From Dysidea avara (lineage: Eukaryota; Porifera; Demospongiae; Dictyoceratida; Dysideidae), in the NCBI RefSeq assembly GCF_963678975.1, contig NC_089276.1, positions 27,051,555 to 27,115,554 on the forward strand: DNA of 64,000 nucleotides. Reading direction: 5' to 3'. Every line of letters starts with the position of its first letter. Position 1 is the stretch's first letter. Shown here piece after piece: positions 463 through 64,000 of this stretch. The position numbers and the translations under genes are program-made. The notes under the pieces were generated by a model that made no database searches, was not told the DNA's origin, and saw nothing but the letters and a program-made list of their open reading frames with translations.

Positions 463-3400
463 GCACTAGAGGATGGCACACTGGAGGAGGTGGAGGAACA
501 AGTTAAGACTACCAAGAGGAAACGGAAGCCCAAGAAAGATGACGGCATTGATCTGGCCAATGTATGTTCTGACACTGTGATAATATGTGTAGTACAATAT
601 AGTTTAGTATACGAAGGTTTCAGTAAAAGATGCTGTAAAAAAGTGATAATGTTTGCCTGGATATTTACAGATCAGTATTTTGTCCAATGTTTTGTACGTA
701 TGTATCAACTTTTTGTACAGTAGCATATGTGATATAGAACTCCCTTTTTTATTTCTAGAAAAGAAAGAAGAAAAGTAAAGGAAGTGAGTGAATTATGTAG
801 TTGGTGTTTGTGTGTGTCAGTGTGTATCAGATGCTTGTGATGTTGTCCCATATTACACATGTGAATGATGCCTTCTGTAAGCACTAGCTCTGAATTAAAG
901 ACACTTATGAGTTGTGATCTGGCCCCACATGTTTTACCACTAAATTTTGTTGATAATACAGTACACTAGTATATTAAAAATTATAAATTTAAAAATAAAG
1001 TAGGAATCCAAACGATAAAAAGTAGTGAAACAAGAGAAGAACGATGTTAGCTATTACAGCATAGCTCGGTGGGAAATCCCTACTTTGGCATGATATATAT
1101 AGCCATTATTTTGTGTTCAATGCCAAAGTAGGAATTTCCCACCGAGCTATGCTGTAATAGCTACCATCGTTCTTCTCTTGTTTCACTACTTTTTATCGCT
1201 TGGATTCCTACTTTATTTTTAAATTTATAATTTACTAGTTGGTTTATTATTTTTTTGTTAAGGCATACAGCTAGCTATAAACATGTGACTGTTCTATTAG
1301 GGTGACTGCTGTGTTAGAGTATCTCGAGGCAGCCTGCAAGATGTGCGCTTGCCCAAAAAGGGGCGTGGTTTCGATCGATTATAGAGTATGTCGAGTCAGC
1401 CTTCCAAATTGAAGGTGTGTGGTCACTGAAATACAGCTAGCGCAAAAGGGGTGTGTCATCGTGGTTTCAATCGATAGATCGATAATACGTAGAATGAAGA
1501 ATGGGCGTGATCTTGTGACCTATCGTGAAGCTATCTAGCTAGTACCAGTACCTCCGTACAGTACCCTCCGTCATAGATTATATCAGTAAGGAATATAATC
1601 TATTCCTCTGTACAGTAGCGTAGTCTAAGTGCCTTAAATAATCTTGTGGCATCTATTATGCTGCTTAAAGAAAGTGTTGATACAGAAATTAACGCCTCGA
1701 TATGGTTTCGTTGGATGAAGAAGACAAGCAGCCTGATTGAAGATAAAGGAAAAGACAAGGCGCAGTGGGTACACACTCGTCGGAACCCCAAAAGGCACAT
1801 CCCACTGGTGAGTTTGCTTTTGTTGCGTAAAATGGTGGCCGTGCACTGCTTCGTTTGTCCTCTAGGCTTGCGACTGTGGTCAGGCAGTCAGTCTAAAATT
1901 CTAAGTTTTGGCAATTCTTAAAATTCAGTATCCGGTCACCTGTAAGTGTTTTGTTGTATTTAATGCTGTTTTGTGTATTATATGGACTAGTACTATTCTG
2001 TAAAGGTGATTTTCGTCTCGTAAGATATCTCTAGGATGATTTTTAAAGGCGCGATTTTGGGCGTCGCGCAAAAATTTCACATGGATTCCTACTTAAACGG
2101 TACTACCGTACCGTTTGATAATGAGTACTAGTGTATATCCCCTGAGTGATATATATGGCTGAATTGCCTGATAGATCATACAATTGATGCTACTAAACAT
2201 TCTCTCTAGTTGTTAATTTTGCTAAATACCTAAATGTTGTGTTTAGCAAACACATATTGATTAACTTGTATTGTTTCATTCCAGAAGCCAACACAGTGTC
2301 TCCCAAACTTATTAATACTCTAACTAAATTGTGGGAGTCAGTTGTGGAGTACAGGGACAAGTTAGTTGTGTGTGTACTGTGTAGTGTTGTGTGTGTACTG
2401 TGTAGTGTTGTGCGATATAGCAAATTTGTATATTGCCTATCATGATTATTGCTCTCTTCTTTTATCACAATACGATAAATTATCATGATATACAAATTGC
2501 ATGAAGTCATGGTAATACCCTGTAAATTGAGTATAGACCATGTAACATAGTTCCTAACATGCACTTTCCTCTGTAAGTAAGTCTGTTATAGAGAAATTAA
2601 TACTGTCTTGACACATCATTTTCTGATGAAATTGCTACACCATCATATATCATGATATAACGATATTAATTTTTTTTATCGCGACTACGATATAAAACTT
2701 TATATATCACGATAATCGATATAGTCGACATATTGCACATCACTAGTACTGTGTGTACATTGTATGGCTTAGTATGTCTGTTGTTGTTGTTGTTGCTGTG
2801 TAAAGTAAACTTTTGTGTGAGTGTGTGCATGCAAATGTACTTAGCATTTAAATTGGTGTGCTGCACTTGATTCAGTAGTTGTTACTACTTAACTTGCCAA
2901 GTATAGTTGCAAGTGTACAGTACTAAATCATATAGCAGGATTTTTTTGAGGGGTGGAAATTTTATTTTCATGAGTTGGATTTCATCATGAATTTTTCCAC
3001 TCAAAATTTGCGGCAAGTTAACCTTTTCAAATAAATAAAACCATACGCTAGGCTCTGTTTGATAACTCTAATAGAACAATTATACCAAACTCTTCTGTAC
3101 ACCAGTTGACAAAACACTCTAATAGAACAGTCACTTTGACATATGAGGTCTTGCTGTACCTCTTTGTTGTTTTGATACTTCTTTAAAAAGCAGGTGCCAG
3201 GTAATAATACTATAGTATGTTCACGTTGAGCTGAATCCTCAAAAACGTTTAATAACTCATGGATGCAATTACTCACGATCTTGAAATTTGGCTCATTTGT
3301 ATTACTGCTTGACCCGCTAAAAATATTTCAAAATCTTTTTGTTCAAATGTTTGACATAATCTTTACGGCCAATCAAAATTTCTACAATACATTTCCTACG

Positions 3401-6400
3401 AGGAAGCCATACAAACACAGTGTCCATTACAGTCCTTTCCCGAACTTATAATGGAGCCAAACCGTACGTGTCTGTTGTTGACACCTTTGCTGTTACCAAT
3501 AATCATCTGGTTGGCTGAAGTGTTAACTCTGTTGAGAAAAAATCCACATTTAACTTTTAGCTGTTTTTCAGGATTCAGCTCAACGTGAACATACTATACA
3601 AGGTAAGCAGGGAATTACTCTTGCAGTTCAATTTTCCATCTGACTACAGGTCTCACCAAATTTCAATGTATAATATCCCAAATAATTTTCTATAGGCTTG
3701 CAAACTTATCTATATTACATTGCAGAAACTGTCAAATAATTACAACAAATACGAAAATCAATGCACACAAATAGTCTCAGGTACCAACAAAACTAGTTAC
3801 ACATTACCATAATAGTCCACTACACAGTCCTACATTGGCCCAGTCCTGTATTGTTTGCTTACTCACCAATGTTTTCTCTGGGTGGTTTTATCAAGATTTA
3901 GCACCATAGCCTTCTAGTGCATGCACATGCTACACATGTGTACATCATGCCACAGTCTTGAAACACACACAACTGTCTTCTCTGCTTATTGTAGCCTATC
4001 AGAAATGATTTAGAATATCAAAATCTAGTGAAGAAATACTTAACTCTTCTTGCAAAGAAAAATAAAATGACAAATTTACAATATGGTGTACTAACAATCT
4101 GGTGTACTTAGTGAGTGTTTTATTAGAGTGATTCTCCATATGGCAGTTGCAGCCATGAAGGTTTATCTAAGTTTGGTTGGACGCAATGTCCAATCATAGA
4201 CACTCACTATTGGTAGAAACTTCATCCAGACAAAATGTACGTCGTACTTGACAATAGTTTAAGGTAAAAACTATTCAATTTTCCAGCAAAAATATCTTTC
4301 CAAATATAGTTTTGTACAGACAGTTTGTAGCAGTTATGTTTGCTCATTTCAAACACTGTTCTCTAAAGCTCTTTGTGCCTAGCTTTGATGTAGATCAAAG
4401 ATATTCAAAAATGATGTAATACTGTACCAATCTGTAGCACATCACAATTATTACACAACTCTTTACAATAATGTAAAATGAAAACATTCAGTATCTCAGG
4501 TAACCGATATCACCAAGACAACTCATTTATAATAGATAATAATGTCACTGTGGTCTTAACTGTGACATCATCACAACAACATCAAAGATTTTGAAAGTTA
4601 TTGTAACATGAACTATTCTTCTTTCATAATGGATGTTAATGGATTGACAGCATTTGCTGACTGTCAAGTTCTACAGTAACATAACCAGTTTTGCAGGTTT
4701 CTTCACCTCAGCATGTGTATACTTACCGGTTATTGATATTGTATGGCTGGACTTTTTTACATTTGTAAAGCAAGAAAATCTGTAGTTCAACACCTTAATA
4801 GTCCAACATATCTATGATCAGACACTGTTTGGTGTATGTAACAATGTCAGATGTTCTTAGTTCTTACTAATCTAACACGTATTGTCACCAACAAGTGTCG
4901 GATGATAATGATTTCAGTGAAGCTCATTTACATGTGTAGTAACAATGGACAGTGCATAACAGTAGATATTCCACTTTAGCGTGGGCATTCAAAGGTGACG
5001 TTCAGTGGTTTAACTCAGTATATCCTTGATTGGAAAGCGATTTGCTCTATCCTTGATGCCCAACCAGTTCAAAGACATGGTACGCTTAAATGACACACAG
5101 CTTACACTGTGGGGTGTACTATTGAAGGTTAAGCTATTCCGACTAGTTGATTGTAATTATTTGCATGGATGTGTATTTCTAAGTGTTACATGTCTATCAT
5201 TGAGCAGACCACAGAACAAGATCACTACAATGAAATTAGGTTAGTAAGTCCTATAATGTTATTGTCCCAACAGCAAATTTAGTTTAGTAAAATTTAAAAC
5301 TTAATCCGACAATTGCATGTTAACTAACAGCATGTACTGAAACATGATAACGTAGAAATAGCATTCTGAGGGCTAATAGCCCACACTCCACGATCAACTT
5401 TGTGCATAATAAAACAAATGGAGTGAGTGCTTGTCACCTATTAGGTCAACATGCATGGAGTGAGTGCTTGTCACCTATTAGGTCAACATGCATGGAGTGA
5501 TGTGTATGACTTTTACCATGAATGCTCAGAATTAGCTGATTTATACACCCTCAACTTCAGGTATAGACTGTATATCGCTTGCAGCCATAGTATAACATAA
5601 TTGTTTATGAACCTGCTATCTTTGATATGATAAGGTTTGTTACTGAAAGGTTTAGTATTGCTGAGAAGTGCTTCAAAGTGGTTATGAAGTATAAACTGAA
5701 GCCAAACAGTAGAACATGTACTAGTCATTTGTCTCATAAGAAATTGTGACCAGATAACCCTCAACTGATTTCTTTTCTGTATAAGTGAACAGTCATGTGT
5801 GTGTTGTAATATACATTCTCTACCATACTTGACATTCCAGTGACCTGCTAATACACTATGTTACGTATGTGCAATCTCATATATGTTTCTGTGTGTATGT
5901 GCACTGAGTACATCATCAGATAGTATCTCCTCAACCATACATCACTCAGTCAGTGCTACTTGTGGTGTGTTGGTGTGTGCCTGTATAATATGTGCATAGA
6001 ACCACCATTTTTCCTGATCAACTTGTCAATTAGAGAGGCAATACTTAAGCACCTTCACTAAGTTTCTGGACAGAAGCTTGTCTAGTCCATATGATGGATT
6101 CGGTGAGCTCCTGTAATGCAGGTGTCCAGAGTGTTCATGTTAACAGGTTTCTCTGTAGCATATATCCTGTCTATCTAGCATAATTACATTCTTTGTGTGA
6201 TTCCTTGTAGTTATGGACGTCAACTGAGTGCCATTTTCTTGGTGTTGCCGACCCGCAAAGACCTACCAGATTACTATCAGAAGATTACCAAGCCAATAGA
6301 CTTCCGTAAGATGAAGGTAAGATCACAGCACAATAAAAAAGCATACAAACTGGTCCCATTACGTTAAATATTGTCACAGGATAATATTACAAAGCACAAG

Positions 6401-7481
6401 TATCGTGGTATGGATGACCTGGAGGCTGATGTGATGTTGTTATGTCAGAATACACACACCTACAATGTGGAGGGATCTCAGGTAATAATGACTTCTTAGG
6501 GAGCCACACTGACTATACACTACACACAATAGTTTTGCTGTATTGTATGTGCTTTACATATTAAATTCCATTAGGTATAATATATGCACGTGTATAGGTA
6601 ATGTACATGCGTGTGTTTGCACACAGTGGCGTGTCTCTGTACATGCCTTACTGTTCTTACACCAATACTATATAGTTCACTAAGCTAATGTTCTCCATTA
6701 TACCATCCTCAGATCTACAATGATGCTACTCAGCTGGTACAAGTGTTCAAACATTATCGTGCTCTTCTGGAGAGCTCAGAACTTGATCAAAGTGACAATG
6801 AAGGATCCCTTCACAGTACCTTACATGATGTTAGTTGTGTCTCCTAGTTACTTGTGTTAGGTTTGTAGTGTGTAATAAGGTTTTGGGATGCTGTACTATG
6901 GTGATTCTAGGGTAGTCTGTTTGCAAGTCTGTTTTCCAGTTCGTTCCATTTTAACCATGTACAGTAACTGTTAGGTTTACTACCAAAGAGTGTTGGTCAT
7001 CAGTAATGGTTCTTTAATTTATTATTTTTCACTGCAGAATGATGATTCACCTGCATCTGATGAAGGTACTAATTCATATTATCAGACCAGTATAAATACA
7101 CTTTTTTTTTTTGTAGACTCCATTCCATCACGTTCAAGGAGCAGTAAATCAGACAAGGGGAAGGTAAGCTACACTGTGTTTGGTAATGTAATGTAGTGAT
7201 GCTCTGGCAGGGTAAGAGGAGTGCTACTAAGAGAAGTCGTAGTAAGAGGGTGGAGGTGTCAAGGATACCAGCTATCATTGAGAGTGACTATGAGGACTCC
7301 AGGGATAGTGTAAGTGTGAACAAGTGCATATGTGTGTGTGTGTGTGCATGCGTGCATGCATTCTCTCTATATACCATCTTTTCTCTCCATACAGTTTGCC
7401 TCCTACACCCCCCAGTCACCTTCCTCATCCTACACTTCATCACAAGTGCCATCACCAGCTTCAAGCATCAGGAAACTGTGA
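463..7481 (+). CDS. brm: BRM/BRG1-like SWI/SNF ATPase, C-terminal part (10 exons, 5' end outside window)
   Basis: This is the 3' part of a chromatin-remodelling ATPase of the SMARCA2/SMARCA4 class. Exons joined by reading phase and GT-AG signals are 463-561, 759-783, 2285-2360, 6211-6316, 6380-6481, 6713-6829, 7038-7065, 7117-7163, 7211-7309 and 7395-7481 (stop TGA 7479-7481), giving 261 residues in this window. The first exon reads ALEDGTLEEVEEQVK, closely matching the segment before the bromodomain in BRG1, and is followed by a Lys/Arg-rich linker. Exons 4 to 6 encode the acetyl-lysine-binding bromodomain, with YGRQLSAIFLVLP, LPDYY, DVMLLCQNTHTYNVEGS and the conserved Asn of CQN. The tail is Ser/Arg/Asp-rich, as in BRG1. 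All phases are compatible and there is no internal stop. The helicase domains lie upstream of base 1. A lyase gene starts 184 bp downstream. A damaged second copy lies at 30,743-36,630, so this copy is probably the functional one (inference). Confidence 0.9.
965..2130. mobile_element. Copy-1-specific insertion in a BRM intron
   Basis: Copy 2 runs directly from GATAATACAG into TTACTAGTGTATAATCCC at about 31,235, whereas copy 1 carries about 1.16 kb between these points. The sequence ACTAGT occurs at both borders and may be the target duplication. The insert contains the foldback at 981-1230, an 'aaaaggggygtg' motif occurring twice (about 1354 and 1443), and no convincing coding region; the ORF at 1646-1921 matches nothing I recognise. 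Confidence 0.6.
981..1230. repeat. Foldback (palindromic) MITE
   Basis: Two arms of about 110 bp (981-1092 and 1119-1230) are near-perfect reverse complements, separated by a loop of about 26 bp that includes TGATATATATAG. The arms contain GTAGGAATCC, AGTAGTGAAACAAGAGAAG and AGCTCGGTGGGAAAT. The element would form a long hairpin. It is absent from the corresponding intron of copy 2. Confidence 0.9.
2412..3020. mobile_element. Copy-1-specific A/T-rich insert, possible DNA transposon remnant
   Basis: Copy 2 goes directly from the TGTGTAGTGTTGTGTG repeats to TAAATAAATAAAACC at about 31,550, but copy 1 has about 600 extra bases. Part of it starts GTTGTGCGATAT and has an inverted counterpart, ATATTGCACATCAC, ending near 2744, with TAGT on both outer sides. 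Superfamily is not assigned. Confidence 0.4.
3211..3598. mobile_element. Short TIR element (388 bp) in BRM intron
   Basis: Perfect 28-bp terminal inverted repeats, starting TATAGTATGTTCACGTTGAG, lie at 3211-3238 and 3571-3598. AGGTAA is present on both sides, and copy 2 has an uninterrupted AGGTAAGGG at about 31,725, so the insertion is unique to copy 1. No transposase ORF is present, so it is a non-autonomous MITE. The target duplication could be AGGTAA or a TA within the flank. Confidence 0.8.
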
Positions 7482-7665
7482 CTGTTCACCCCACACGAGA
7501 TACTCATTGATTTACACATATTTCCGTATATATTTACAATATTTTCCATTTGTAATTGCAAAAACTTGTTCAACCGGTTATGTTAAATGCGGCGTCATGG
7601 TATTATAGTTGAAAGTCTGAAGTAGCAGCACATTTTGTCATTATTTTGTGTGTGCTACGGTGGTT
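7482..7665 (+). promoter_or_regulatory. Short intergenic region between BRM stop and lyase ATG
   Basis: Only 184 bp separate the BRM stop codon from the lyase start codon in the same orientation. It must contain the 3' end signals of BRM and probably the lyase promoter. I see A/T-rich CGTATATATTTACAA near 7526 but no clear AATAAA. The equivalent segment in copy 2 is retained. The regulatory role is inferred from spacing only. Confidence 0.35.
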
Positions 7666-10600
7666 ATGGATGTCAACCGACTAGCGAAGTCTCCGAACGA
7701 AGATCTTTCAGATGATGAGGCCAAGGGTTCTGGCAACGCGAATGACTCCATCAAGATACGTCCCATCACGTACAAGGACGTACAGAGTGCTACTGAAAAG
7801 ATATACAACGGAGGAATCAACAAGACCAATTTACAAGTGAGCCCTACACGTGGCGTTAATCAGCGAAATATACGCACACACCCCCAACACACCTTTTTAA
7901 AGCCACGACGTTCTAATTTGCTTCATTGTCAGTTGCTTCTAGACTATTACTTTCCTTTCTGTAATTTGCAGGGGAGAACCGTCAGCCTGTCTAGTACGTG
8001 ATGGCTGAAAACCTAACTTATACTGGTGGAAGTTTCTATAATGTGCCGTGACGCTCGGATAAAGAAAAGTTAATACGAGCCGGTTCCCACTGTCTATAGT
8101 TGTACTAGCATTTAATATCCAGTCCTTGTTTTCACTGAACTCTAATCTAAACTTATAGCTATTGAAACCAAACTTACTGACCTCGTTGCTGACAACTTTA
8201 AAATTTGCGAGCCCAAGTATTTTACTCAGCATGCTACACCTAGCAAATTTACACATTAGGCCACTCCAAGAAAATTCATTGTTTCCCATTTCCCACCCGC
8301 ATGTAGATTCTCCTCCCGCATGGTCATTCATTATTGCTGTCAACTGAACATTTTATTCATTAGGCCACTCCAAATGAGACTGTAGCTTCCCGTCCTAATG
8401 TTTTCGTTATTTGGTGCGGGCAGAAGGCTTATTATCATTATTCATTACTAAAGATGTGACTGCTCTATTAGATTATCTCAATTATGAGAGGATTTCAAGG
8501 TCATGAAAATGGCTCCTTTGCAAGCTAGCAACCACCAGAACCGTTCAGTTTTAGGTTTCATTGTGCTTTTTAGCAATACAAAATAAAAGGCTCCATGAGA
8601 AGTTCCAGAAAGCAGCACAGGAAGTGGTTTTGGAAAAATCATGACAATAATGACATGCAATGCGGGTGCCCAGACGTGATGCGGGCAGAGGGTGGGAAAC
8701 TACAGTCTCATTTGGAGTGGCTTATTTATCCTGTGGTTACATAGCAGTAACTAGTTTATCATTCAGAAAGCTCATTTAGCTAGCTTTCACTGTTCAGGTT
8801 CTTACTGTATTCTTACCTGCCAAAGTAAGTTAGTTATGAATTTCGAAAATTAGTGAAAATATCTATAATCAAGAGTATATACTAATAGAAATCAACAGTG
8901 TATTAGCTCGTGATTCTTAGGTAACGCGTTACATTTGCAAGTAAAGTAACTTGAGTTATATTACCTGTTATTACAGCATATTTCACTGGTTATCGGTCAT
9001 GTTGATAATGGGATGTTGTCCGGACCTGTTGCTTTGTGAGGGTCCAGATTGACTAAAAGATTATAATGTGTTTTATTAATTCTATAGTATTCTGATCGGA
9101 TGTCAGAGTTAGCTGGAATGAAGTTATTCTTCAAGCAAGAGTACACCATGCCTACAGGAAGGTAAAGGGTTAAAGTACACCGAATTAATAGCACAAATTT
9201 ATTGTATTTTCTGCAGTTTTAAAGAGCGAGGTGTGGTGAATGCATTGTTAAACCTTACTGAGGTTAGCTAGTACTTTAAAATGTTATCACTTGTAGTAAT
9301 TAACAAGTTCAAAGTGTGGTGTACACTATTGCATCATAGTTGGTATAATTACACATTGATGTCATGATAGTTTACATTGTGGGTTTCCTTTGATGTCATG
9401 TGGTTTACATTGTTGAGTATTGTGTGTGTATATGATTAAATGGCAATGACTTTTCATGTTTTTGTTTTTTTTGTAGCCACAGAAACATTGTGGGGTTATT
9501 GCAGCTTCTGCTGGTAACCATGCTCAAGCACTAGCCTATCATGGCAAGAAGCTCGGTATTCCTGTGACAGTGGTAATGCCAATAGTATCCCCTATTACTA
9601 AACTACAGAGGTGTAAACAATTTGGTGCTGAAGTGATCATCCGAGGAGATGATGTCGTAGAGGTATTGTAATACTTTCTTGACTGCTACTATATATACCG
9701 CCTGTTTGTACAGTCAAAGGACAATGCAATGAAGATAAGCAATGAGACAGGAAAAGTCTACATTCACGGGTAAGTCAAGCCATGTTGTGTATAGGAACTA
9801 AGCCTTACATATGGGGAATATATTGGTAGATATGATGATGCTAACATCTTGGCTGGCCAAGGGACAATTGGCATAGAGGTGATCGACCAGATGAAAGATA
9901 TTGGACAGCCACTGGATGCCATTATCGTGCCTGTTGGCGGAGGTGGTCTTATTGCTGGAATATCTGTTGCTGTGAAACAATTATCTCCTGACACAGAAGT
10001 GATTGTGAGTTGAATGAAATTACACCCACTAAATATCATGTCATGTAACTGTAGTACTTCCTGTGTTGTGAGGCTTCCTTTGTCACTTTTGGTATAGGGG
10101 AACAATACATTATTTCATTAGAATCCTGGGAACTAATACACTACCCCATGATGGCTTTACAGTGTAGTAATGTTATGGTTAGGCTATGATTTGATTGGGT
10201 AATGTGTCACAATTCAACCTTCAAATAAGGTTTTCTATATCAATCTTTGTTTATGTACCAATCTACAGATTAATCTACACATTAAAGTGTATTTATCTTT
10301 TCTGTGTTGTTTGTATAGGGTGTAGAATCAGACCATTGTGATGCATTTAAACAGTCATTTGACAAGAAAGAATTGGTCACGGTTGAAGCACAGTCAACGC
10401 TAGCAGATGGACTAGCTGTATCGAGGCTAGGTACTCGATCTTTTATGACAGCCTCTCGTCATGTTGACAGAGTGGTGACAGTCAGGTAAATAGTGTGGTT
10501 GTCAGTGAGTTCATGATATGGTGTGTGTTATGATATATAGTGAGAATGAGATTGCTGTTGCCATTTTACGGATAGTTGAAATACTAAAGACTGTAGTGGA

Positions 10601-11432: not shown

Positions 11433-12624
11433 ACACACAACTAGATTCTGAATACGGATACATCAACTCATGCACCAGGATTATTGCCTTCTAGTATGTA
11501 TAACAGTTACATTTAACCTTATACTTGATAATTATGCCGTGTAACAATAACATCTTAATAACTACATGTGCATGCCATGGCAGGCCAAGCAATTGCTGAT
11601 CTGCCAGTGTAAAACATGGTGGTATAAGAATTAATATACACAGCACACACTTCAAGGTATTTAGCTATCCCCTTCACTTACATTGCAGTTCAAGTCATAA
11701 CATGCATTAGAAGCAGCAGTGTGTCATGTGGTCAAGAAAAGACAATCATGTGTATAATAGTTGACAGGAAGAAAGAAAACACTGTTTTCACGCCTGCATA
11801 ACTCCATGGTCCCTTATTATAGCGGTCTGCCAGGTAGGGTAGGCCACACGGCAAATTTGATTAATTTATTCAATTGACCCATTTGTGTTCATTAGTTTTT
11901 AAGGGGTCTACAGGGACCTAGATTTTTCACACACTTTGCAAAATCATTATAAAATGCAAATGTGTGATTCAATTACCTTGAAATTTGATATAGATAAAGA
12001 GCATATAAAGGTGATTTTATGTACTGAGTTTGCAAGGAATCTGAAAATATCCAGTGCTATGAACGTTATGTTTATTCACCATCACATAAAATGAATATTA
12101 ATTTTATCATTAATGCATGTTTATGGGAAATTACTTGAAAATTGGTGTGTACATAGGCTAGCCATCATAGCAGTGCATTTGAAAGACAAAGGAATAAAAG
12201 CTACGCAAAAACCAAATATCTGTAAATTGCATAGTCAAGATATTCTAATAGTACAGTCACCGTGGGGTGACAAAGTGCATGAATGATGTTGAAAAAACTT
12301 ACCATACTAAACACTCAAGCCTTTAACCCCTCTGAACTACTGCTATCATGGCTGTTCATCTTCTACTTTTATATTCTAGCTAAAAGGTACTTAATAGTGA
12401 AGGTGTATAATTTCATAGATCTACAGTAGCAATGGAAATTCTAGAACATTCTATGTGTGTTTTATTAGAAATCCTCAAAACTGTGTGCTCTATTAGAGTA
12501 TTACCACAATATTACAATCTCAATTTAAACATACTTCTGCCTTCAAATAAGAAATGTGGGTAAAAACATATTCCAAAGCCACTGAATTTGGAGCCATATA
12601 GAGTACAAAAAGATGTGAAATCTG
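11433..12624. other. Intergenic; duplicated tail to about 12,112, no gene seen
   Basis: Bases to about 11,870 correspond to 39,830-41,650 without the hAT, and 11,870-12,112 correspond to 50,223-50,423, the far side of the 8.6-kb insertion in copy 2. After 12,112 the sequence is unique and A/T-rich, with two variants of the CTCTATTAGAG motif at about 12,241 and 12,490. No coding potential is recognised. Confidence 0.7.
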
Positions 12625-17470: not shown

Positions 17471-18871
17471 TACAAATATAGCTTTAAAAAATCTCCCATC
17501 ATATTATATGTGCACAGTCTACATAGCTAGCTACCACTGGTCGACTGTTTATCATCATGATCCACAGGTGATCTCTCATGTGGTACTGGTAGCTGCTTAC
17601 TGTGTGACAACTGGAGATGTTCCCATGTGGGGTGAACTAAAATATAGCCAGAATGAATATAGTTTCGTTGTAAATAACTGTATCTTTTAACTTCAGCTAT
17701 AAACTTCACATGTAGCTGGCTATAGCCACGTAGCTATAGTAGAACAAGCACCGATTCCACCACTTCTATAACTAACCGTGGTATGAATGTTGTAAAAGAT
17801 TACCATGCATCTAGCAGCTTTCTTAACAAAAAAACTGCAACAAACAGTATGGGCTGAAGAAAACACTCAAACACTTGTTAGCTCTAGTTCACATGATCTA
17901 TTCGGTTGTCATCAAGAATGCTGCTTGAGTTTGATTTGTGGAATTTAATGCACTTTTCTTGTCAGGAACATTAATGTGGGGTATTTTATTTGGTACAGCA
18001 TCTTTTATTTGAAAATGTTGCAAATTGCTGATGGTCCAGTTTAAAGCATGTCACATTGTATGTAAGTCATTTGAACATTAGAGCTATGAGTTACTCAAAA
18101 ACACTAAAAATTCATATATCAACTTGGTCTAGCTATCTATATATACATCAATCATCATGTATTGTAGTTTCAACAGTCAAGTAATCTGACTGTTCTATTA
18201 GAATGTAACACAAGAACAACGACATATTACCAAAAATCAGGAATATTTTGCTGTAGAAAATTTCCATGTTTTAAAATTTCGATGCAACATATTTTTGTCA
18301 CTGGCATAATCGGCAAATTTTTTTAACAGAACATATTATTTTGTACATGCAAATTGTTCGTACAGCTACAAAAATCATCCAACAACAAAAATTTTTGATG
18401 AGTTTTTCCATGATTTTTGTATTGGTACATTGTATCATTAATACCTACACCAATACATCATTATAGTACTTCTATCGTGATTTTACTGGCTACAAAAATA
18501 GTACTCACAAAGTTTGTTCACTTTGTTGAATAAGAAAGTACATAGAATGGTACTGAGATTAATTGGTATATATATATATATATATACCTCATGATCCCTA
18601 TCACAGTACTACTGTAGCATGCAACATGAAGTACTGATAAGTAAGACCATGAAGGATTGAGCATATATACTGGCCACTTTGCTACAGTGACCGTGCCACT
18701 ATGCCCAAACTGAACTTGACAAGTTTGAAAAAAGTAAGCTGCATACAAAACCATATGAAATTTGTACATCATTCATGCTGCTCACAGACAGAATTACATG
18801 TATTTAATGTTACATGCAAAATATATGTATTACCTGTACATGCACTAAAGCATACATTGCATGGAGGACAT
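17471..18871. other. Intergenic, no gene seen
   Basis: A/T-rich sequence with a short TA microsatellite at about 18,571-18,587 and one GTTCTATTAGA motif near 18,190. The small ORFs match nothing I recognise. Confidence 0.6.
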
Positions 18872-20661: not shown

Positions 20662-25829
<5,168 letters not shown>

Positions 25830-27276: not shown

Positions 27277-27625
27277 GGCCAATGAAATTTGATTAGCAGT
27301 TTCGCGTCATCGTCCGCATGCTTTTGATACACCCGCATGGAATTTCATTATTGGTATTTCAGATTGAAATACTCTAATAGAGCAGTCACTTTTACTCTAA
27401 TGGAGCAATGAGCTATACTCTAATGGAAAAATCACTTGTTATATGGATTAGTAACGTATTAATGCAGGAGTAATCAATGTAGACTCACTTTTTTGGCAGA
27501 AATCTTCATGTTTGGGATGTGTGTTGTGCCTTTTGGAAAATAATGAATAATGAATAATAACCGCCCGCCCGCATCAAATTTTCAAAAAATCTGAGCGAGA
27601 AACTGGTAATCAAGTTTCATTGGCC
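27277..27625. mobile_element. PIF/Harbinger-type MITE (349 bp)
   Basis: Ends GGCCAATGAAATTTGATTA and the complement of GGCCAATGAAACTTGATTAC. TTA on both sides (27,274-27,276 and 27,626-27,628). It contains several CTCTAATAGAG/CTCTAATGGA motifs at about 27,371-27,425. Nested in the long-TIR element. Confidence 0.9.
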
Positions 27626-30600: not shown

Positions 30601-32616
30601 ACCACTTAGGAAAGATAGATCATAAGTTTCTCCCATTGCAAATGTACAGTGACTTTTCACATTGAAACTGGCCAGACAATACATTTGTTATATCTAACAT
30701 TCCGTATACGTTATCACTGTTGACTGTCTTGATGTTGTACAGGCACTAGAGGATGGCACACTGGAGGAGGTGGAGGAACAAGTTAAGACTACCAAGAGGA
30801 AACGGAAGACCAAGAAAGATGACGGCATTGATCTGGCCAATGTATGTTCAGACACTCTGATAATATGTGTAGTACAATATAGTTTAGTATACGAAGGTTT
30901 CAGTAAAAGATGCTGTAAAAAAGTGATAATTTTTGCCTGGATATTTACAGATATTTTGTCCAATGTTTTGTGCGTATGTATCAACTTTTTGTACAGTAGC
31001 ATATGTGATATAGAACTCCCTTTTTTATTTCTAGAAAAGAAAGAAGAAAAGTAAAGGAAGTGAGTAAATTATGTAGTTGGTGTTTGTGTGTGTCAGTGTG
31101 TATCAGATGCTTGTGATGTTGTCCCATATTACACATGTGAATGATGCCTTCTGTAAGCACTAGCTCTGAATTAAAGACACTTATAAGTTGTAATCTGGCC
31201 CCACATGTTTTACCACTAAATTTTGTTGATAATACAGTTACTAGTGTATAATCCCCTGAGTGATATATATGGCTGAATTGCCTGATAGATCATACAATTG
31301 ATGTTACTACTAAATATTCTCTCTAGTTGTTAATTTTGCTAAATATCTAAATGACATTGTGTTTAGCAAACACACATTGTATTGTTTCATTTCAGAAGCC
31401 AACACAGTGTCTCCCAAACTTATTAATACTCTAACTAAATTGTGGGAGTCAGTTGTGGAGTACAGGGACAAGTTAGTTGTGTGAACTGTGTAGTGTTGTG
31501 TGTGTGTACTGTGTAGTGTTGTGTGTGTACTGTGTAGTGTTGTGTGTGTATAAATAAATAAAACCGTACACTAGGCTCTGTTTGATAACTCTAATAGAAC
31601 AATTTTTCCTAACTCTTCTGTACACCAGTTGACAAAATACTCTAATAGAACAGTTACTTTGACAAATGAGGTCTTGCTGTACCTTTTTGTTGTTTCGATA
31701 CTTCTTTAAAAAACAGGTGCTAGGTAAGGGAATTACTCTTGCAGTTCAATTTTCCATCTGACTACAGGTGTCATCAAATTTCAATGTATAATATCCCCAA
31801 ATAATTTTCTATAGGCTTGCAAACTTATCTATATTACATTGCAGAAACTGTCAAATAATTACAACACAACAAATACGAAAAGCAATGGACACAAATAGTC
31901 TCAGGTACAAACAAAACTAGTTACACGTTACTATAATAGTCCACTACACAGTCCTACATTGGCCCAGTCCTGTATTGTTTGCTTACTCATCAATGTTTTC
32001 TCTGGGTGGTTTTATCAAGATTTAGCACCATAGCCTTCTAGTGCATGCACATGCTACACATGTGCACATCATGCCACAGTCTTGAAAACACACACAACTG
32101 TCTTCTCTGCTTATTGTAGCCCATCAGAAATGATTTAGAATATCAAAAATCTAGTGAAGAAATACTTAACTCTTCTTGCAAAGAAAAATAGTATGACAAA
32201 TCCACAATATGGTGTACTAACAATCTGGTTATCCTAGAAACATGACCTCTGTGGGCATTTCAGAATATAGCTTGCTAAGAAACACAAAATTCCAGTGTAA
32301 CCATGTCAAAATTGTATTGTACTTAGTGAGTGTTTTATTAGAGTGATTCTCCATATGGCAGTTGCAGCCATGAAGGTTTATCTAAGTTTGGTTGGACGTA
32401 ATGTCTGATCATAGACACTCACTATTGGTAGAAACTTCATCCAGACAAAATGTATGTCGTACTTGACAATAGTTTAAGGTAAAAACTATTCAATTTTCCA
32501 GCAAAAATATTTTTTCAAATATAGTTTTGTACAGACAGTTTGTAGCAGTTATGTTTGCTCATTTCAAACACTGTTCTCTAAAGCTCTTTGTGCCTAGCTT
32601 TGATGTAGATAAAAGA

Positions 32617-54561: not shown

Positions 54562-56239
54562 ACATCCCATCACGTACAGGGACGTACAGAGTGCTACTGA
54601 AAAGATATATAACGGAGGAATCAACAAGACCAATTTACAAGTGAGCCCTAGGCTACACGTGCCATTAATCAGGGAAATATACGCACACACCCCCGACACA
54701 CCTTTTTAAAGCCACGCCGTTCTAATTCATTGTCAGTTGCTGCTAGACTATTTTTTCTCTGTGATTTGCAGGGGAGAATCGCCAGCCTGTCTACATTGAT
54801 GGAAGTTTCTACACTGATAAATAAAAGTTAACACGAGCACACCGCGGTACACTTAAATAAGATGTCATTCCCACTGTCTGCTGTAGTTGTTAACATTATT
54901 CTGTTATATCCAGTCCTTGTTTTCACTGAGCTCTAATCTAAACTTATAGCTACTGAAACCAAACGTGCTGACAAGTTTTGCAAGCCCAACTAAGTGTATA
55001 CTCAGCATGCCTACACCTAGCAAATTTTAAATATCACGTTACTCATTAGGTCCCTATTCGGTGATTATTAGTTGGCAGTTGCTATTCACACGGTCACGTG
55101 TGAATAGCATAGAGCTATTCGCACGGTCACGTGTGAATAGCATAGAGCTATTCGCACGGTCACGTGCAAATAGCACGGAGCTATTCACTTACGTGACCGT
55201 GCGAATAGCACAGATCCTCGCTCAGAGCTATTCGCACGGTTACTAAAAGAAGACAGATGCAGTTGGCATTTGTGTACACAAAGATCCTTTACATGGCATA
55301 CATCTTCGGGGTATGTACGTGCATGCGGGGAGTATAATGGATACGTCACCGAATTTGGTCGTGTGAGTCCAAGGATACACCATGCATCATAGTGCACACG
55401 CATTAATGTGTTTTCTCTGCTAGCTGTGGGTTGTGTAGTACTGTACTTACATATTATAGCCACCGTTGTAAAATATGCAAGCATGTCTCTGTTAGACCCA
55501 ACTGCATGGGTGGTAAAATGTACGCAGTCATGAAGTTCATAATCAGTTAGTCAGAGTTTATAAACTGATATGGTAAAATTAATAAGTAGAGATTTACAAA
55601 ATAGCACACATTGTAAAGTAGCAGATTAATTAGATCAAAATAATCCAATAGGAGTCATGCAGTCTGAGTCAAAAACATTGCCAAGTGCATCCTCGCATCC
55701 CTTTAGTTACAAAACCACATTTCTCCAACAGCATTCATTCTCTTGGACTGTTCCAAAGTGATACGAACGCAAGAGTGATGCTATCCTACAGTAAACAAAG
55801 TAATTTATCATTAGCATACAAGCATAGACTAGGCTTAATTTTACCTTAATTCCATCACATACATCACTTTCATTGTTTCTCCAGTAGAACAAGTAGCATC
55901 CCCTTGTTTAGTTATTGAACTGCGGCTAGGGGGTCTACAACTCCGAGGAATATGAATGGACAGAATTTGATTCTAAAATTGGAAAAATTTTCTGTAATAC
56001 CTGACAAGCAAGAGTCAGCACCAGGATTCACTGGGCATTAATTGTCAAATCACAATGTCAAGACAATTGAGCCTATAATGTGATAGCAAAAGCAACACAC
56101 ACCAGGGGTGAATCCATACAGACTTTTGGAAAGGGGGTCAAAATGGCATGCTACATTGTCTAGTTTGGTAAAGTGAGACCTCTGAAAAAAGGTCACAGCC
56201 TGCTGACAATACCAGCCCACACTACCATGCAACTATTAT

Positions 56240-57560
56240 TATCATTATTAATGGATGGATATACATACAGGGTTACAAAAATTAAGTTTAGGCACTAGGC
56301 CTTGTTCATATCCATATCCTATGTCATTCCAATAATTATCAAGACTTGCTTTGAAAGTACAGATTGTTGGCGCTGAAACAACTTCTGCTGGCAGGGAGTT
56401 CCATGTATTCAGGGGCGGATCCAGGGGAGGGCACAGGGGGCACGTGCCCCCCCCCTTAAAAAATGTATATAAGATCGAGATACTCTAATAGAGCAGTCAA
56501 TCACCAATCACTCTAATAAAGCAGTCATAGTGTTCATGGGGAAGTGTAGCTTACTTAGGAAGCTATAAATAAGATTTTATTTTACATAACATACGTGATA
56601 TAATATATTTGGTAAAGGATAACTAGCTATTATTGTTGTGACCTTTTTTATTTTTTTTTATTTTTTTTTTGCTCTTCAACTTTTTTCAGCAAGGTGCCCC
56701 CCCTCTTTCCAGACTCTGGATCCGCCCCTGGTATTTATCACTCTCTAGGTGAAAAAATTTGACCTTAAAAGTAGACGTGGTGGTTTTTTGAAAAGTTTCA
56801 AGTGGTGTCCTCTTGTGTGATGCACAGAGCTTAAAGTACCTTGACCAGTCGACATCATAATAACCGTGTAAAAGCTTGTAAACTTCAATTAGATCCCCTC
56901 GTTGTCATCGATAGTAAAGAGAATAGAGTCTGAGTTTTCTTAACCTTGACTCATAAGGTAGTTTGACTAGTTCATTCACAAGTTTAGTGGCCCGCCTTTG
57001 TACATTTTCTAGGGTGTCAATGTCCCGGGCTAGATATGGACACCAAAGCTGGACACAATATTCTAGCTGTGGCCTAACATAAGTTTTATACAGGAAGATA
57101 AACAATTCTTTAGAGAATTTTGTAAATGTTCTTTTAAGCATTCCCAGGATTCTGGTTGCAGCAGCTGCAGCTTTATCACAGTGCAAAGAAGGTTTAAGAA
57201 AAGATGTTACCCATACACCTAGATCTTTCTCAAAATCTATCTTTGTTAACTCTACAGTAGACCCCAAAGTTTCCATTGTATAATTTGCTCCTGTGCTTTT
57301 ACTATATGCATCACTTTGCACTTTTCTAAGTTAAGATTCAGTAACCAGATTCCATTCCATTCTTGCATGTTGATCAAGTCTCTGCATGGAGTTTTGTCAC
57401 ATCACATATGTTTTTAATTATTGAAAATATCTTTGTGTCATCTGCAAAAACACCAAATTCAGACTGGATAGCTTCGACAATATCATTTATATATAACACA
57501 AAAAGCAATGGACCCAGTACTGATCCTTGAGGAACTCCACTATAGTTACTCCAGTCCATT
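56240..57560 (-). mobile_element. LINE fragment with RT catalytic region, interrupted
   Basis: Minus strand: [20 protein letters not shown] and FADDTKIF (catalytic FADD box) at about 57,540-57,430, then KIDFEKDLGVWVTSFLKPSL, YKTYVRPQLEYCVQLWCPYL and NVQRRATKLV at 57,250-56,970, and NTWNSLPAEVV at about 56,410-56,380 after the MITE. CR1/L2-like. A frameshift near 57,370 and the MITE inactivate it. Confidence 0.85.
56410..56730. mobile_element. MITE (321 bp) with CAGGGGCGGATCCAG ends
   Basis: Ends CAGGGGCGGATCCAG and CTGGATCCGCCCCTG, with GTATT directly on both sides (56,405-56,409, 56,731-56,735). Removing it restores INTWNSLP in the host LINE, which supports the 5-bp duplication. It contains two CTCTAATAGAG/CTCTAATAAAG motifs. 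Confidence 0.85.
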
Positions 57561-58674
57561 GAGACACACTTCCATTGGCATTGAGTACTATGTATTTATC
57601 ACTGCCATAAAAATCCTTAAGCTCGCTACACACTGTTCTAATACTATGACAGCTTCATTAGAGTGACTGCTCTATTAGAGTATCACGATGTTGGTATACT
57701 ACCTTGGCCTCCTCCCTGTATTCCACACGGCCGTTCCGGCACCCTTACCCTTAAATGCAGTCCGAACATTTTCCTCCGTGTGCGCAAACAAAATCTATAC
57801 CTCAAATCTTCATTGTATACCTTCGATGGTGTACGTTTTGCTACTGAATCTATTGCCGGATCTTGATTGATGTTGATCGTTTAATTGGACGAATTCCGTT
57901 CTTTCAAAGCTCTTTAAGATCATCGTAACTCTCGAATTCGCCTCCTATACAAAACATCGGGCATGTGACGAAAGAACACAGAGAAAGGTCCAGAAAGAAA
58001 AATCCCGCTCAAAGCCACGTGTAGTTTTCGGAGATGAATGAACCGTGTACTATCCGTAAAATAATAACATCACGTGACTGCCGTGCGAATAGCACGAAGC
58101 TATTAGTACGTGACCGTGCGAATAGCCACTCCGTTATTGGTTTCTCATCCAGCCTTTCTAATTATTATGATGCGGGCGGGAGGGTATTACCATTATGCCA
58201 TTATTTTATAATATTAACACTCTGATGTACAGACCTTGTCCAAATTATCTTTCTTTCTTACTACAAACATTTCCTTCACCAGCTGATTCTACTTTTCGTG
58301 ATCGCCAACTGTTTTTCGACAGTCAGCTGAAAGCCTGCTTTGATGAAGTCGATAGAGCACGATTGCAATTGGCACTGCAGCAATTTGCTAAGGAAAACAA
58401 CAGTTCTCCTGGTGATATATAGCGCATTGTAGCGTTCATCAACAAAAATTATAACAGTTTGGTATCACGTGTTCTTCTGAGCATGCGCAGAGTAAATAAT
58501 GGCTTATCATGCGGTAGCTTAAGAAGGATGCGGGCGGTGGATGAGAAACTAACAATCACCAAATAGGGGCCTTAGCTATCGGTCATGTTGAGAAAGTGTT
58601 TTATTAATTCTATAGTATTCTGATCGGATGTCAGAGTTAGCTGGAATGAAGTTATTCTTCAAACAAGAGTATAC

Positions 58675-59534
58675 TCATTCAACTTACAAAAATGTGAATT
58701 TCTTAGAATCACTAACAAGAAGCACCCAATACTAGCTCAATACACACTGCAAAGTAAAACTATAAAAGAGGTAACACATGCTAAGTATCTAGGTGTAACT
58801 ATCGACAAAAACCTATCCTGGTCAGAGCACATTAAACAAATTACTAAAAAGGCCAATAACACCAAATGCTTCTTGCAACGTAACTTGAGCAAGTGCCCTC
58901 TCCAAGTCAAAAGTAACTGCTACAAAGCCCTGATTAAACCTATCTTAGAATATGCAGCCACAGTCTGGTCACCCCACACGCGAAGAGACATCGATGCTAT
59001 AGAAAATGTCCAAAGACGAGCAGCACGGTTTGCATTTAACAACTACTCTAGATATTCCAGTGTCACTGAAATGTTATCTAACCTTAATTGGCCTACCTTA
59101 GCCAGATGCAGGAATGAACAGAAGGCTACAATGTTATTTAAAATTATATCTCACCAAATCGACATTAATGCTGATGATTTCCTTTTTTCTAATCCTAACC
59201 TACATCACACCAGAGGCCATGATAAGAGATTTTTAACCCCAATGACTAGAATTGACTGTTATAAATTTTCTTTTTTCCCCTCTGCAATCAATATTTGGAA
59301 TTCCTTACCCCAACACGTGATTGATTTAACAGAGATTGACCAATTCAAGCACAGCCTAGCTGGACTAGTAACTGTTTAATAATTTATCAATGTGTATATA
59401 TGGTCTTGTGTACAGTAAATATTGTATAATTGTATAAGTTTGTTTTCCTTTTGTAATTGACAGTAGCAATTGTACCCTTTTTGTGCACCATACTCTTTTG
59501 AGGTCTGCACAACAATCAATAATAATAATAATAC
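58675..59534 (+). mobile_element. 5'-truncated CR1/L2-like LINE inside exon 2 of lyase copy 3
   Basis: Plus strand, open from about 58,678 to a TAA at about 59,378. It has HSTYKNVNFLESLTR-type out-of-frame start sequence, then KYLGVTIDKNLSWSEHIKQI, YKALIKPILEYAATVWSPHT, NVQRRAARFAFNNYSRYSSV and INIWNSLPQHVID. This is the C-terminal part of the RT protein. The 3' end is (AAT)n at 59,518-59,530. ATAC is present at both junctions (58,671-58,674 and 59,531-59,534), matching the intact GAGTATACTATGCC of copy 2. Confidence 0.9.
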
Positions 59535-61801
59535 TATGCCTACAGGAAGGTAAAGGGTTAAAGTTATTAAAAAGCATAAAATTAATTTTTATTTTCAACA
59601 GTTTTAAAGAACGAGGTGTGGTGAATGCATTGTTAAACCTTACTGAGGTTAGTACTTTAAAATGGTATCACTTGTATACTTAACAAGTTCAAAGTATGGT
59701 GTACTTTATTGCATCAGATTTTGCATAATGGTTTTCCTTTGATGTCATGTTCTTTTCCTTTGATGTCATGTTGTTGTGTATTGTGTATACATGATTAAAT
59801 GGCAACGACTTGTCATAATGGTTTTTTTTTTTTTTTTTTTTTTTGTAGTCACAGAAACGTTGTGGGGTTATTGCAGCTTCTGCTGGTAACCATGCTCAAG
59901 CACTAGCCTATCATGGCAAGAAGCTCGGTATTCCTGTGACAGTGGTAATGCCAATAGTATCTCCTATTACTAAACTACAGAGGTGTGAACAATTTGGTGC
60001 TGAAGTGATCATCCAAGGAGATGATGTCGTAGAGGTATTGTAATACTTTCTTGACTGCTTCTATATACCGTCTGTTTGTACAGTCAAAGGACCATGCAAT
60101 GAAGATAAGCAATGAGACAGGAAAGGTCTACATTCACGGGTAAGTCAAGTCATGTTGTGTATAGGAACTAATTATAAGCCTTACATATGGGGAATATATT
60201 GGTAGATATGATGATGCCAACGTCTTGGCTGGCCAAGGGACAATTGGCATAGAGGTGATTGACCAGATGAAAGATATTGGAGCGCCACTGGATGCCATTA
60301 TCGTACCTGTTGGCAGAGGTTGTCTTATTGCTGGAATATCTGTTGCCATGAAGCAATTATCTCCCGACACAGAAGTGATTGTGAGTTGAATGAAATTACG
60401 CCCACTAAATATCATGTCATGTAACTATAGTACTTCCTGTGTTGTGAGGCTTTTTATGTCACTTTTGGTATAGGAAAACAATACATTATTTCATTAGAAT
60501 TCTGGAAACTAATACACTACCCCTGTGTGTGAATGGCTTTACAGTATAGTAATGTTATGGTTAGGTTATATTTGATTGGGTAAATATGTCACTAATCAAC
60601 CCTCAAATAAGGTTTTCTATATCAATCTTTGTTTATGTACCAATCTACAGACTAATCTACAGACTAATCTACACACATTAAAGTGTTTTTATCTTTTCTG
60701 TGTTGCTTGTATAGGGTGTAGAATCAGACCATTGTGATGCATTTAAACAGTCATTTGACAAGAAAGAATTGGTCACAGTTGAAGCACAGTCAACGCTAGC
60801 AGATGGACTAGCTGTATCGAGGCTAGGTACTCGATCTTTTATGACAGCCTCTCATCATGTTGACAGAGTGGTGACAGTCAGGTAAATGTGTGGTTGTCAG
60901 TGAGCTCATGATATGGTGTGTGTTATGATATATAGTGAGAATGAGATTGCTGTTACCATTTTACGGATAATTGAAGTACTAAAGACTGTAGTGGAAGGAG
61001 CCGCAGCTACTGGTCTTGCTGCTTGTTTGTTTGGAAAACTGAACCATCTTAGGGGAAAGAAGTTAGTATAGTGTGTGTGTGTGTGTGTGTACAGATAGTA
61101 CTTATATTATTTTCCTTCTTACAGTGTGGCAGTGGTGTTAACAGGATCAAACATAGACACACCAGTTCTCAACAGATGTTTAGAACGAGGCCTGGTCAAT
61201 GATGGCAGATTAATGATGTTTCAAGTGCTCATTACTGATCGTCCTGGTGGCCTTAGTGAGCTACTAAAACTCTTAGTACAACACAATGCCAGGTATATAC
61301 AATAAGTCACTCATATTGTACTTATTGTATTTTAATACATACAGTGTCCGAGACATATTTCATGAGAGGCCATGGGTACAAGAAGATATGTATTCAGTAG
61401 AGGTAAAAAAAAATTTTTTTTGCGACTATAAATAGACACTGTTTCTACACATGGAATTGTCTTATTTTAGTGATAGTATTTTTGTTTTTCATATAATATA
61501 GGTGAGGTGTTCGGTGGACACTATTGGATGGAAACAAAGCTACCAATTGAAAGTTGCTCTTGAGAAGAAATATGGCAAGAGGATTTCTTGGGGAAAAGAC
61601 AAAGTACTAATGATCTCTGGCACAATCTAAAGAGTTTATTACATTGGAGATCGGCTGCCATGACTACCACAGCCTTATTGTGACAATTTATATTTTTAAA
61701 GCACTGAAGCTAATCTGCATAGCTATAATTTATGTAAATAAGATTTTTTTTGTATCGAGTCATTTTTATATAAAAAAATATCCTAGTAAAACACACAACT
61801 A

Positions 61802-64000
61802 CAGTGTTAAAACAGGGGAGTAACAGTAACTATGGGAGTAAAATATTTTACTCTGAAAGGGGAGTTTGGATTACTAGGAGAGTAACAGTAACCCACTAAG
61901 GGTAAAGAGAACTCCAAGTAAGTGAAGGCACCAAACTGAAGAGTTCCCATTACCAGCTAGCTATAGTAGCTAAGGTGAACTCAGTGAGCCAGTATGGCTG
62001 AGGCCACATATGAATGAGCCACATGCAGGTTATAGCTGTCTCACTATGTTATTTTCTCCAATAACTAACCAGTTCAATTCTAGTCACTCAATGTAAAAAA
62101 GGAAAGTAATTATTTAGGCTTCCTTTTCAATGGCAGCCATTTATTCATGTTACAGGCTAACCAAGGCATAGTGAAGGAAACAGACAGTACGAAAACAGGA
62201 GGACGAATTGTTACTCAAGAGTCAAGAATATTTTGAAATACGTATGTATAATTATTAAATACCATTTCTATTGCAAGCGCATTATTTAGAGTGAAGAGTA
62301 TTGCCATAGAAACGGCTTCTTTAACAACAAAGCCGTGTTGAGTAGTTGAAAGCGGTTTGCTTCTCTGAGGAATTGTAGTGCTTAAAGGTGATACTAAAGT
62401 GTTTACTTGTGTGTTCGTGAATAATTACTGGACGTTCACTAGAGTCTATCTCGTTCATTGTTTCTTCAGGTACGTTTGAGCATAGATAATAGACCTTATT
62501 CATTTAGAACAGTAAGCGCCCTCTGATGTCACGCGAAGCCATACAAGGCACTCTATTTGCCATGGTGATGGTCTTTCGGACGCCATTTTGAGTTCTAAAA
62601 CTGGGCGAGCACAACGGTTGCTATCATGTTACCATAGTTATGGTACTGCAAATGGCGAATTTGGCGGAGAATTGTGATGTTACTATGGTTTTAGTATTGC
62701 AAATGGCGGACAACTCCTTCGCAACGGGTTATAAGCGCTATGAAATTAATTCAGTGAATAAGATCTATACACCTGAGATCTATACACGTAATAAAGGATT
62801 GGCAACGCGCCTATTAAACCTGTAGTGACGTCACGTACAATCCTCGTTACGGTTCGTCATCCAGTTAACGCGCCCTCTCACCCGTTGCTAAACGCACTAG
62901 GCTGCTTCATTCCTTGTACCGTAGCAGGGTACTACTGAGTACAGACGTAAAGCTTAGTTCAAACGAACGTACATCTACTAAGGTGAGTATCTGATGTAAT
63001 AAAATAGTGAAACGCACTGTCAGTTTTAACCCAGCGCAAGATAAGGCCCATGGCTTCATGGCTTTTCACAGTTTTGGAGTTTTAACAAGGAAACTGAAGT
63101 GCTTTTTTCCGAACAATGTATAAAGAATTAATCGTAACCATTAGTAGAGTGTCATGCTTTGCTTTGTGTAGGCGTACCACTTACCCAAACTATGGTTTGA
63201 AGCTGTTTCATTGTGCTGGGTTTTGGAGTTTTGTCGTGGTACCATGAGGAGAAACATTAAGTTACTATTCAGCACAAGAGAGCTCAATGTTATGGTGGTG
63301 TTATGCAAATATGCATGAGCTCAAATTCAGATGTGGCATTAGCCATCAAAGTATGTGAAAATGGGATATAAAAGGTGTAGTGGAACAGAGCATATTATCA
63401 ACATGAAGGAGCTGTTGGTGCTAAAGAGTAGTGTATCGTGACTTCAAGCTTAGACAGGGAATGATGAGCATATCTATAAATGTAGCAGCTCACAACAAAT
63501 ACCATCCACTGGATATCAAGTGACGTCCTTGTGTTTTGTCACAAAAAATAGACATTCCCTTCAAGTGCTGGAAACTAAGTCTAGCTAGTTCACTTTGTTA
63601 TAATAATTGATATAAACAATGGACACATATTATACTAATTATCTGAACTCCTATGCACCACCTGCAGCTCAAATACCTGATAACTGAAGTTGTACAAAAT
63701 CTCTTTACACAATGTTACTCAGTTACAAAGTATGAAAAATAACTTCTCTAATAGAACACTCGCTACTCTAATAGAGTATTAAATTTTGGCATACAGGTTT
63801 GGATAACTGAGATTCCACTGTACACCTGTAGAACATTTGCCAGTAGGTACCACATCCCAATGTATAGTAGTCAAGGTAATTATGACTGTTGCAATCATTG
63901 CATTCAAGCACTAGTAGTAGTATTCATATCAGATAAAACAGCAGCAACATCACAACCCTCAGAGTCACAAATGACATGGGACTCTCACACACAATCTCAA
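61802..64000. other. Unique flank, no gene recognised
   Basis: Starts at the end of copy 3. 61,804-61,900 has repeated GGAGTAACAGTAAC phrases, perhaps a hAT end remnant. 62,510-62,900 is more GC-rich, with CGCCATTTTG, two copies of TACTGCAAATGGCG / TATTGCAAATGGCG and GTGACGTCACG (CRE-like palindrome); it might hold a promoter or a MITE. A CTCTAATAGAGTATT motif lies at 63,769. No convincing coding exon. Confidence 0.5.

Follow-up and report, generated by a model that had tools for sequence, protein, structure and literature searches.

A repeated 19-bp unit inside many repeat families of the sponge Dysidea avara: a possible binding site for a host protein

Why should one short motif recur in so many apparently unrelated places? 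The question is raised by a stretch of the Dysidea avara genome (assembly GCF_963678975.1, contig NC_089276.1, positions 27,051,555 to 27,115,554 of the forward strand), 64,000 nucleotides long and hereafter called the window, in which the quasi-palindrome CTCTAWTAGAG, often followed by CAGTCAC, had been noticed at 17 sites in differing surroundings. The original prediction, made from the letters of the window, offered three explanations: a very short mobile module, a protein-binding site captured or selected by many elements, or an ancient regulatory or replication signal. We find that the motif belongs to a longer, directional module that is carried inside many repeat families, and the reading that we tentatively prefer, with a probability of roughly 0.45, is that it is an internal cis-module of these families to which a nuclear protein of the host may bind.

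Abundance and anatomy of the module

Shuffled sequence and reversed strings rule out a chance origin of the motif. In the 550.8-Mb genome (550,814,596 bp, 108 contigs) CTCTAWTAGAG occurs at 46,958 sites, against 336 for the reversed string; the 18-mer that runs on into CAGTCAC has 11,379 matches and the 28-mer GATCGAGATACTCTAATAGAGCAGTCAC has 3,642, with none for either reversed control. The genome-wide count that had been proposed as a check therefore shows the motif to be far commoner than its control. Within the window, CTCTAWTAGAG (at most one mismatch) and CTCTAATAGAGCAGTCAC (at most three) each have 18 matches, where 0.78 and 0.03, respectively, are expected from shuffles, and in neither case did any of 100 shuffles reach the observed count. 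A match lies no more than about 10 bp from each of the 17 sites first listed, in several cases with three or four mismatches over 19 bp. Three of these sites (31590, 31640 and 32331) do hold the motif but are not independent, being duplicates of those at 3064, 3115 and 4114. A trained 19-bp matrix, its threshold set for about one false match per window, finds 31 units in all, or 27 once the four inside the duplicate copy at 30329-39998 are removed.

How common are units in DNA that was not chosen for them? Twenty 2-kb segments taken arbitrarily from 11 contigs (40 kb) contained nine units of at least 14 bits, in five of the segments (0.225/kb), whereas the reversed matrix found none there; the 130,271 bp of the fetched loci that lie more than 200 bp from exact matches contained 35 (0.27/kb). 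A rough extrapolation from these densities gives 1.2-1.5 x 10^5 units per genome. In 188,996 bp of unascertained DNA, sites with 0, 1, 2, 3 and 4 mismatches to the 19-mer number 3, 12, 11, 21 and 13 where 0-1 are expected, and those with five and six mismatches number 14 and 52 (6 and 41 expected). This spectrum, mostly one to four mismatches in 19, is the pattern of repeats of mixed age.

The module is one directional block with sharp edges, in which an 11-bp leader, AAGATCGAGAT, is followed by a 19-bp unit, ACTCTAATAGAGCAGTCAC, present in one to four direct copies. Information content, measured over 53 flank contexts, climbs at the leader, stays high over the unit and is about zero outside positions -11 to +18, and a comparison of two anchorings indicates that the leader goes with the first unit and is missing from most later ones. 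The short core recognized in the original prediction is thus real, although the block that holds it is longer and opens with the leader. Modules with one, two and three units number 41, 39 and 13, and four consecutive units occur in one locus, L109. Same-strand units are spaced mainly 17, 21, 23, 27-28 and 32 bp apart. Copies in both orientations, sometimes paired 15-30 bp apart, had been described, and pairs are indeed frequent (62 on the same strand, at 17-32 bp), but nearly all are direct repeats; the further pairs in the window and 48 loci are two at 51 bp, which are the duplicated 3065/31588 pair, and a single one on opposite strands. Given the leader and the direct repeats, the quasi-palindrome is no more than the center of a directional unit. 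Rare inverted arrays were also seen (L010:363 and L012:1501), in which a module with its leader faces an inverted leader (AAGATC..GATCTT) in a large palindrome.

The module does not correspond to several familiar kinds of sequence. The unit can be read as the peptide TLIEQS, but units spaced 17, 20 or 23 bp apart fall out of frame with each other, and we reject a coding repeat. A viral origin is rejected with zero exact matches in IMG/VR, as is a prokaryotic one, the single exact match in a collection of prokaryote genomes being taken as chance. The window contains no Rfam match at gathering score and no tRNA detectable by ARAGORN. In the literature no description of the motif was found, texts that hold the core string having been judged by their titles and the start of their abstracts.

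Carrier families and their ends

Could all copies be parts of one long repeat, the case that the original prediction had set against its own proposal? Our sample of the exact 18-mer consisted of 50 loci from the first 2.6 Mb of one contig (C1) and 20 from the next 0.9 Mb. Three loci were dropped before counting (L001, a bacterium, and L007 and L029, which overlap L006 and L028), window units inside 30329-39998 were left out of the flank clusterings, and L052-L054, added deliberately as members of family B, are included among the 117 modules clustered. These modules fall into 58 joint flank groups, 12 of them with at least two members, which rules out one long repeat. The statement that surrounding sequences differ is not supported in its simple form, as 61 of the 77 exact-18-mer modules share a flank with another module in the sample, in in-register alignments of up to 1.7 kb with a lower cut-off of 70 bp. 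Amplification of carriers accounts, for the most part, for the exact copies.

The largest group comprises 31 modules that have one right arm in common but whose ends are of several types and whose left arms make up 12 groups, a few of these being fragments. That one right arm is found with several left arms and ends implies that the pairing of interiors with ends has varied. On both sides, families B, F, G, H and I form separate flank groups. Family C includes members with one, two and three units, and in one copy, L051, the module runs directly into a tandem satellite of about 31 bp. This satellite, with a unit near AGAGTTCAGCTACAAAGAAATCACCCTGTAG, occupies L051:1605-3001 and occurs on the minus strand of L109 from about 4370; stretches resembling it are present in several other fetched loci.

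Miniature inverted-repeat transposable elements (MITEs) of the hAT superfamily have 8-bp target duplications and short terminal inverted repeats (TIRs). Across families A1, B, D, G and I we found perfect 8-bp duplications together with TIRs of five types: CAGGGCCGCCCA in A1 (L005, L021, L038 and L039), TAGGCACCGGCC in B (L002, L030, L032 and L048), CATAGGCGGATC in G (L027), TAGGGATGTGGG in I (L024) and those of the family D copy in the window; in L050 (A1) and L035 (G) the duplication has one mismatch. At least 10 of 12 end bases are complementary in each of the named A1, B, G and I copies, and the D ends were read directly. These TIRs and perfect duplications lead us to class the five families as hAT-like, with lengths of 300-890 bp where both ends were located. 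In family F, by comparison, two copies (27277-27625 of the window and L034 1380-1744) have matching TIRs beginning GGCCAATGAAA.. and a TTA duplication, the signature of PIF/Harbinger elements; a third member, L046, failed the script that searched for TIRs and TTA, as did the element at 8259-8721 of the window, which by eye nevertheless resembles family F. That one transposon family is not sufficient, as originally argued, is therefore upheld by carriers that include hAT-like MITEs with five end types, a TTA-duplicating Harbinger-like family and a repeat adjoining a satellite. The carriers resemble hAT MITEs in their duplications and short TIRs, and family F resembles PIF/Harbinger MITEs in its TTA duplication and TIRs, but one internal module is common to families with different TIRs, and family F carries the same module as the hAT-like MITEs. 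To our knowledge there are very few cases of transposons of different superfamilies with the same short, repeated, internal motif.

Explanations for the spread and persistence of the module

A major question arising from these observations is "What carried the module into such unlike elements, and what keeps it there?" We propose that the carriers are mostly short DNA transposons lacking a transposase, whose transposition would have been the main source of the module's copy number. Families with unlike ends, hAT-like and Harbinger-like, would have gained the module through exchange or nesting of interiors, and unit number would shift as tandem copies are gained and lost. The module's persistence would most probably be due to a host nuclear protein that binds unit by unit and tolerates variable spacing: that many unlike repeat families carry the motif suggests that a host protein recognizes it, and possession of the module may benefit the carrier. 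Of the three options first offered, a captured protein-binding site is thus the best fit, although binding itself is something we infer. We prefer it because it would explain the freely spaced repetition, the carriage by elements dependent on different transposases and the slight extra conservation described below. A bolder extension, in which a single host protein would occupy upwards of 100,000 sites and two or more unrelated superfamilies would each have acquired its site, a parallel capture producing a genome-wide binding landscape, we consider rather unlikely.

There is a partial parallel in nematodes, where, according to one report, a 17-bp CENP-B box-like motif is conserved in 11 otherwise divergent satellites and is a possible protein-binding site (PMC9673304); another describes conserved motifs at the monomer junctions of satellite DNAs (PMC3694981). 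In both the nematodes and the sponge a short motif is kept in divergent repeats, here in 53 contexts with conservation confined to the block. The nematode carriers, however, are satellite arrays, whereas ours are mostly dispersed MITE-like elements in which the motif is tandemly repeated, and the likeness is one of pattern.

Close behind the host-protein site we rank hitch-hiking, a possible but doubtful alternative in which a functionless interior of an ancestral MITE was passed on from family to family by nesting and recombination and is conspicuous only through its internal repetition and the ease with which it is recognized. It draws strength from families A1, A3, D and others, which have the whole right arm in common, well beyond the module, and from the left arms of C and E, which are about 67% alike; it does not readily accommodate the separate groups of B, F, G, H and I or block edges that are sharp over so many contexts. 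Conservation speaks on both sides. Module letters outside the selected unit beat the median flank window of equal size in 12 of 14 families, which favors a protein site, and a simpler count made earlier had favored the module in 10 of 12, with C among the 10 and with E and the A right-arm set opposed. Several observations nevertheless weigh against our preferred reading. The conservation signal is weak, as two of the 14 families are individually extreme (no more than 5% of their flank windows being as conserved), and of the 12 that favor the module several show just a slight advantage, four of them lying close to the median (0.43-0.49); C and E show the opposite trend, their modules being no better conserved than the flanks, and the earlier four-member alignment of C had pointed the opposite way to this later result. 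Our loci, moreover, were selected by an exact unit, which biases them toward conserved copies. The mismatch spectrum equals what ordinary ageing repeats would produce, as hitch-hiking would have it, and 16 of the 77 exact modules have no flank relative in the sample. A TIR with an 8-bp duplication was detected around 16 of 90 modules and, as a control, around 22 of 269 positions drawn at random from those repeat-rich loci, so the detection rate alone is weak evidence; of the 16 detections, at least three (L017, L044 and L028) are spurious on inspection. Finally, one-sided sharing of flanks is unequal, with 144 right-only and 30 left-only pairs. Did the module then act as a recombination point? 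We tested this model and could not establish it, since the sharing is mostly of the right arm; the left-only pairs listed are largely from family B and include its deletion copy.

Could the 30-bp block insert by itself? Its sharp edges and the 58 joint groups for 117 modules would be expected of a mobile unit, but family B argues otherwise. The genome was queried with the flanks of this family joined without the module, and the 40 candidates scored of 920 gave 78 matches. Both flanks are present with a gap in 38 of the 40 (83 bp in 26, 62 in five, 72 in five, 82 in one and 104 in one), and reading one copy with a 62-bp gap and one with a 72-bp gap showed fewer complete units in both. The remaining two are a copy with no right-flank match and one that spans the joint, which is an internal deletion retaining unit 1; there is thus no module-free copy among the 40 scored of 920. 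Neither a duplication nor an inverted end was seen by eye at the block edges, where no systematic test was made, and the two modules missing from the segmental duplicate of the window (1285 and 8456) sit within larger non-matching stretches. The very short mobile module first suggested finds no support here, and we regard independent mobility as highly improbable.

Equally remote, in our estimation, is an ancient host signal, regulatory or for replication or chromosome pairing, that is under host selection and was merely picked up by MITEs: degenerate copies without flank relatives in the sample are in keeping with it, but repeat families contain most of the exact copies (61 of 77), which are presumably the youngest. 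Less remote, though still improbable, is that the hAT transposase that mobilizes the MITEs binds the units as subterminal repeats. Several carriers are hAT-like with 8-bp duplications, and hAT proteins bind subterminal as well as terminal repeats, through BED zinc fingers in the case of the subterminal ones, as stated in a published study (PMC8097297), the likeness being that of short motifs inside hAT-type elements. The difference is that the module is missing from all 17 transposase elements sampled. No unit lies inside the 12 PF05699 elements (loci with intact transposase frames, picked from 150 scored of 1,875 candidates), with one unit outside, and none inside the five PF14291-type elements (picked from 150 scored of 427 candidates); these unit-free interiors imply that the module is not a general hAT transposase site. 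Element ends with a perfect 8-bp duplication were located for eight of the 12 PF05699 loci, the TIRs of those sampled elements with located ends are of the TAG.. or CGGTGGCGTAGCCAG.. kinds, and none of the ends found is identical to the carrier MITE ends. In the families mapped, moreover, the module is internal and one-sided, not at both ends, and a TTA-duplicating MITE family carries it too. The four units of L109 lie, by eye, beyond the right end of the transposase element and within a family C copy.

The window in detail and the meaning of the module

Units and carriers in the window are collected in Table 1. A large diverged segmental duplication, in which 41-11600 is alignable piecewise to 30329-39998, has part of a third copy at 54562-61804; the copies differ by several insertions. 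An inverted repeat at 978-1233 (114-bp arms, 28-nt loop) adjoins the 1285 module in a stretch missing from the duplicate. Missing likewise from the duplicate, at 37386, are the approximately 3.5 kb at 55050-58570, which by eye have inverted ends GGTCCCTATTCGG with TTA on both sides and contain 33-bp tandem repeats (55081-55214), the A2 MITE and reverse-transcriptase-like remains.

Table 1. Positions of module units and of their carrier elements in the window
Feature	Position	Strand	Remarks
Two units, 17 bp apart	1285..1320	-	Within 1.1-kb stretch (~975-2114) missing from duplicate at 31226-31249
Two units, 51 bp apart	3065..3134	+	Duplicated at 31588-31657
One unit	4111..4129	-	Duplicated at 32326-32344
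MITE-like element	8259..8721	.	Ends GGCCACTCCAA / TTGGAGTGGC, TTA both sides, by eye; failed 14-bp TIR script
One unit with leader	8456..8474	-	Inside 8259-8721 element
Weak unit, 16.5 bits	11422..11440	+	
One unit with leader	12242..12260	+	Flanks ~65% alignable to L017/L044 repeat
Two units, 28 bp apart, first weak (16.6 bits)	12453..12499	-	
One unit	18186..18204	-	Left flank has CCGATTATGCC, as in family B terminal region (by eye)
Two units, 17 bp apart	21189..21224	+	
Weak unit, 17.4 bits	23686..23704	+	
hAT-like MITE, family D	24223..24561	-	Plus-strand ends CAGCGGCGGAGG..CCGCCGCCTATG; perfect 8-bp duplication GTTAGGCC both sides
Two units, 17 bp apart, leader 24449-24459	24413..24448	-	Inside family D MITE
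Weak unit, 18.6 bits	26551..26569	+	
Harbinger-like MITE, family F	27277..27625	+	TIR GGCCAATGAAATTTGATTAGCA, TTA both sides
Three units, 23 bp apart, immediately preceded by leader	27371..27435	+	Inside family F MITE
Weak unit, 16.7 bits	30381..30399	-	
Copy of 3065-3134	31588..31657	+	Segmental duplication
Copy of 4111-4129	32326..32344	-	Segmental duplication
hAT-like MITE, family A2	56410..56730	+	Ends CAGGGGCGGATCC..GGATCCGCCCCTG; no clean 8-bp duplication seen
Two units, 28 bp apart, immediately preceded by leader	56482..56528	+	Inside A2 MITE
Two units	57646..57681	-	Then ~30 bp common with family D; beside reverse-transcriptase-like stretch (by eye)
Two units, 20 bp apart	63745..63783	+	

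Elsewhere in the window there are a perfect (TG)526 run of 1,052 bp at 22145-23196 (100% matches) and a 100-bp tandem repeat of 9.3 copies at 44074-45000 (98% matches). A 500-aa open frame at 12801-14303, with a diverged duplicate at 18872-19810, matches nothing in Pfam at 0.001 and no PDB sequence at 0.1. The minus strand at 52100-54507 holds the remains of a hAT transposase, with a DUF4371 match and Dimer_Tnp_hAT just below the cut-off.

What would the module mean for the sponge and its transposons? If a host factor does bind the units, transposons would have supplied one factor with about 10^5 sites, and it could be asked directly whether, for the sake of transcription, position in the nucleus or evasion of silencing, they converge on a host protein. 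If, instead, the module has hitch-hiked, it would be a clear case of MITE families that share interiors, and a warning that repeat annotation based on end sequences alone hides such shared interiors.

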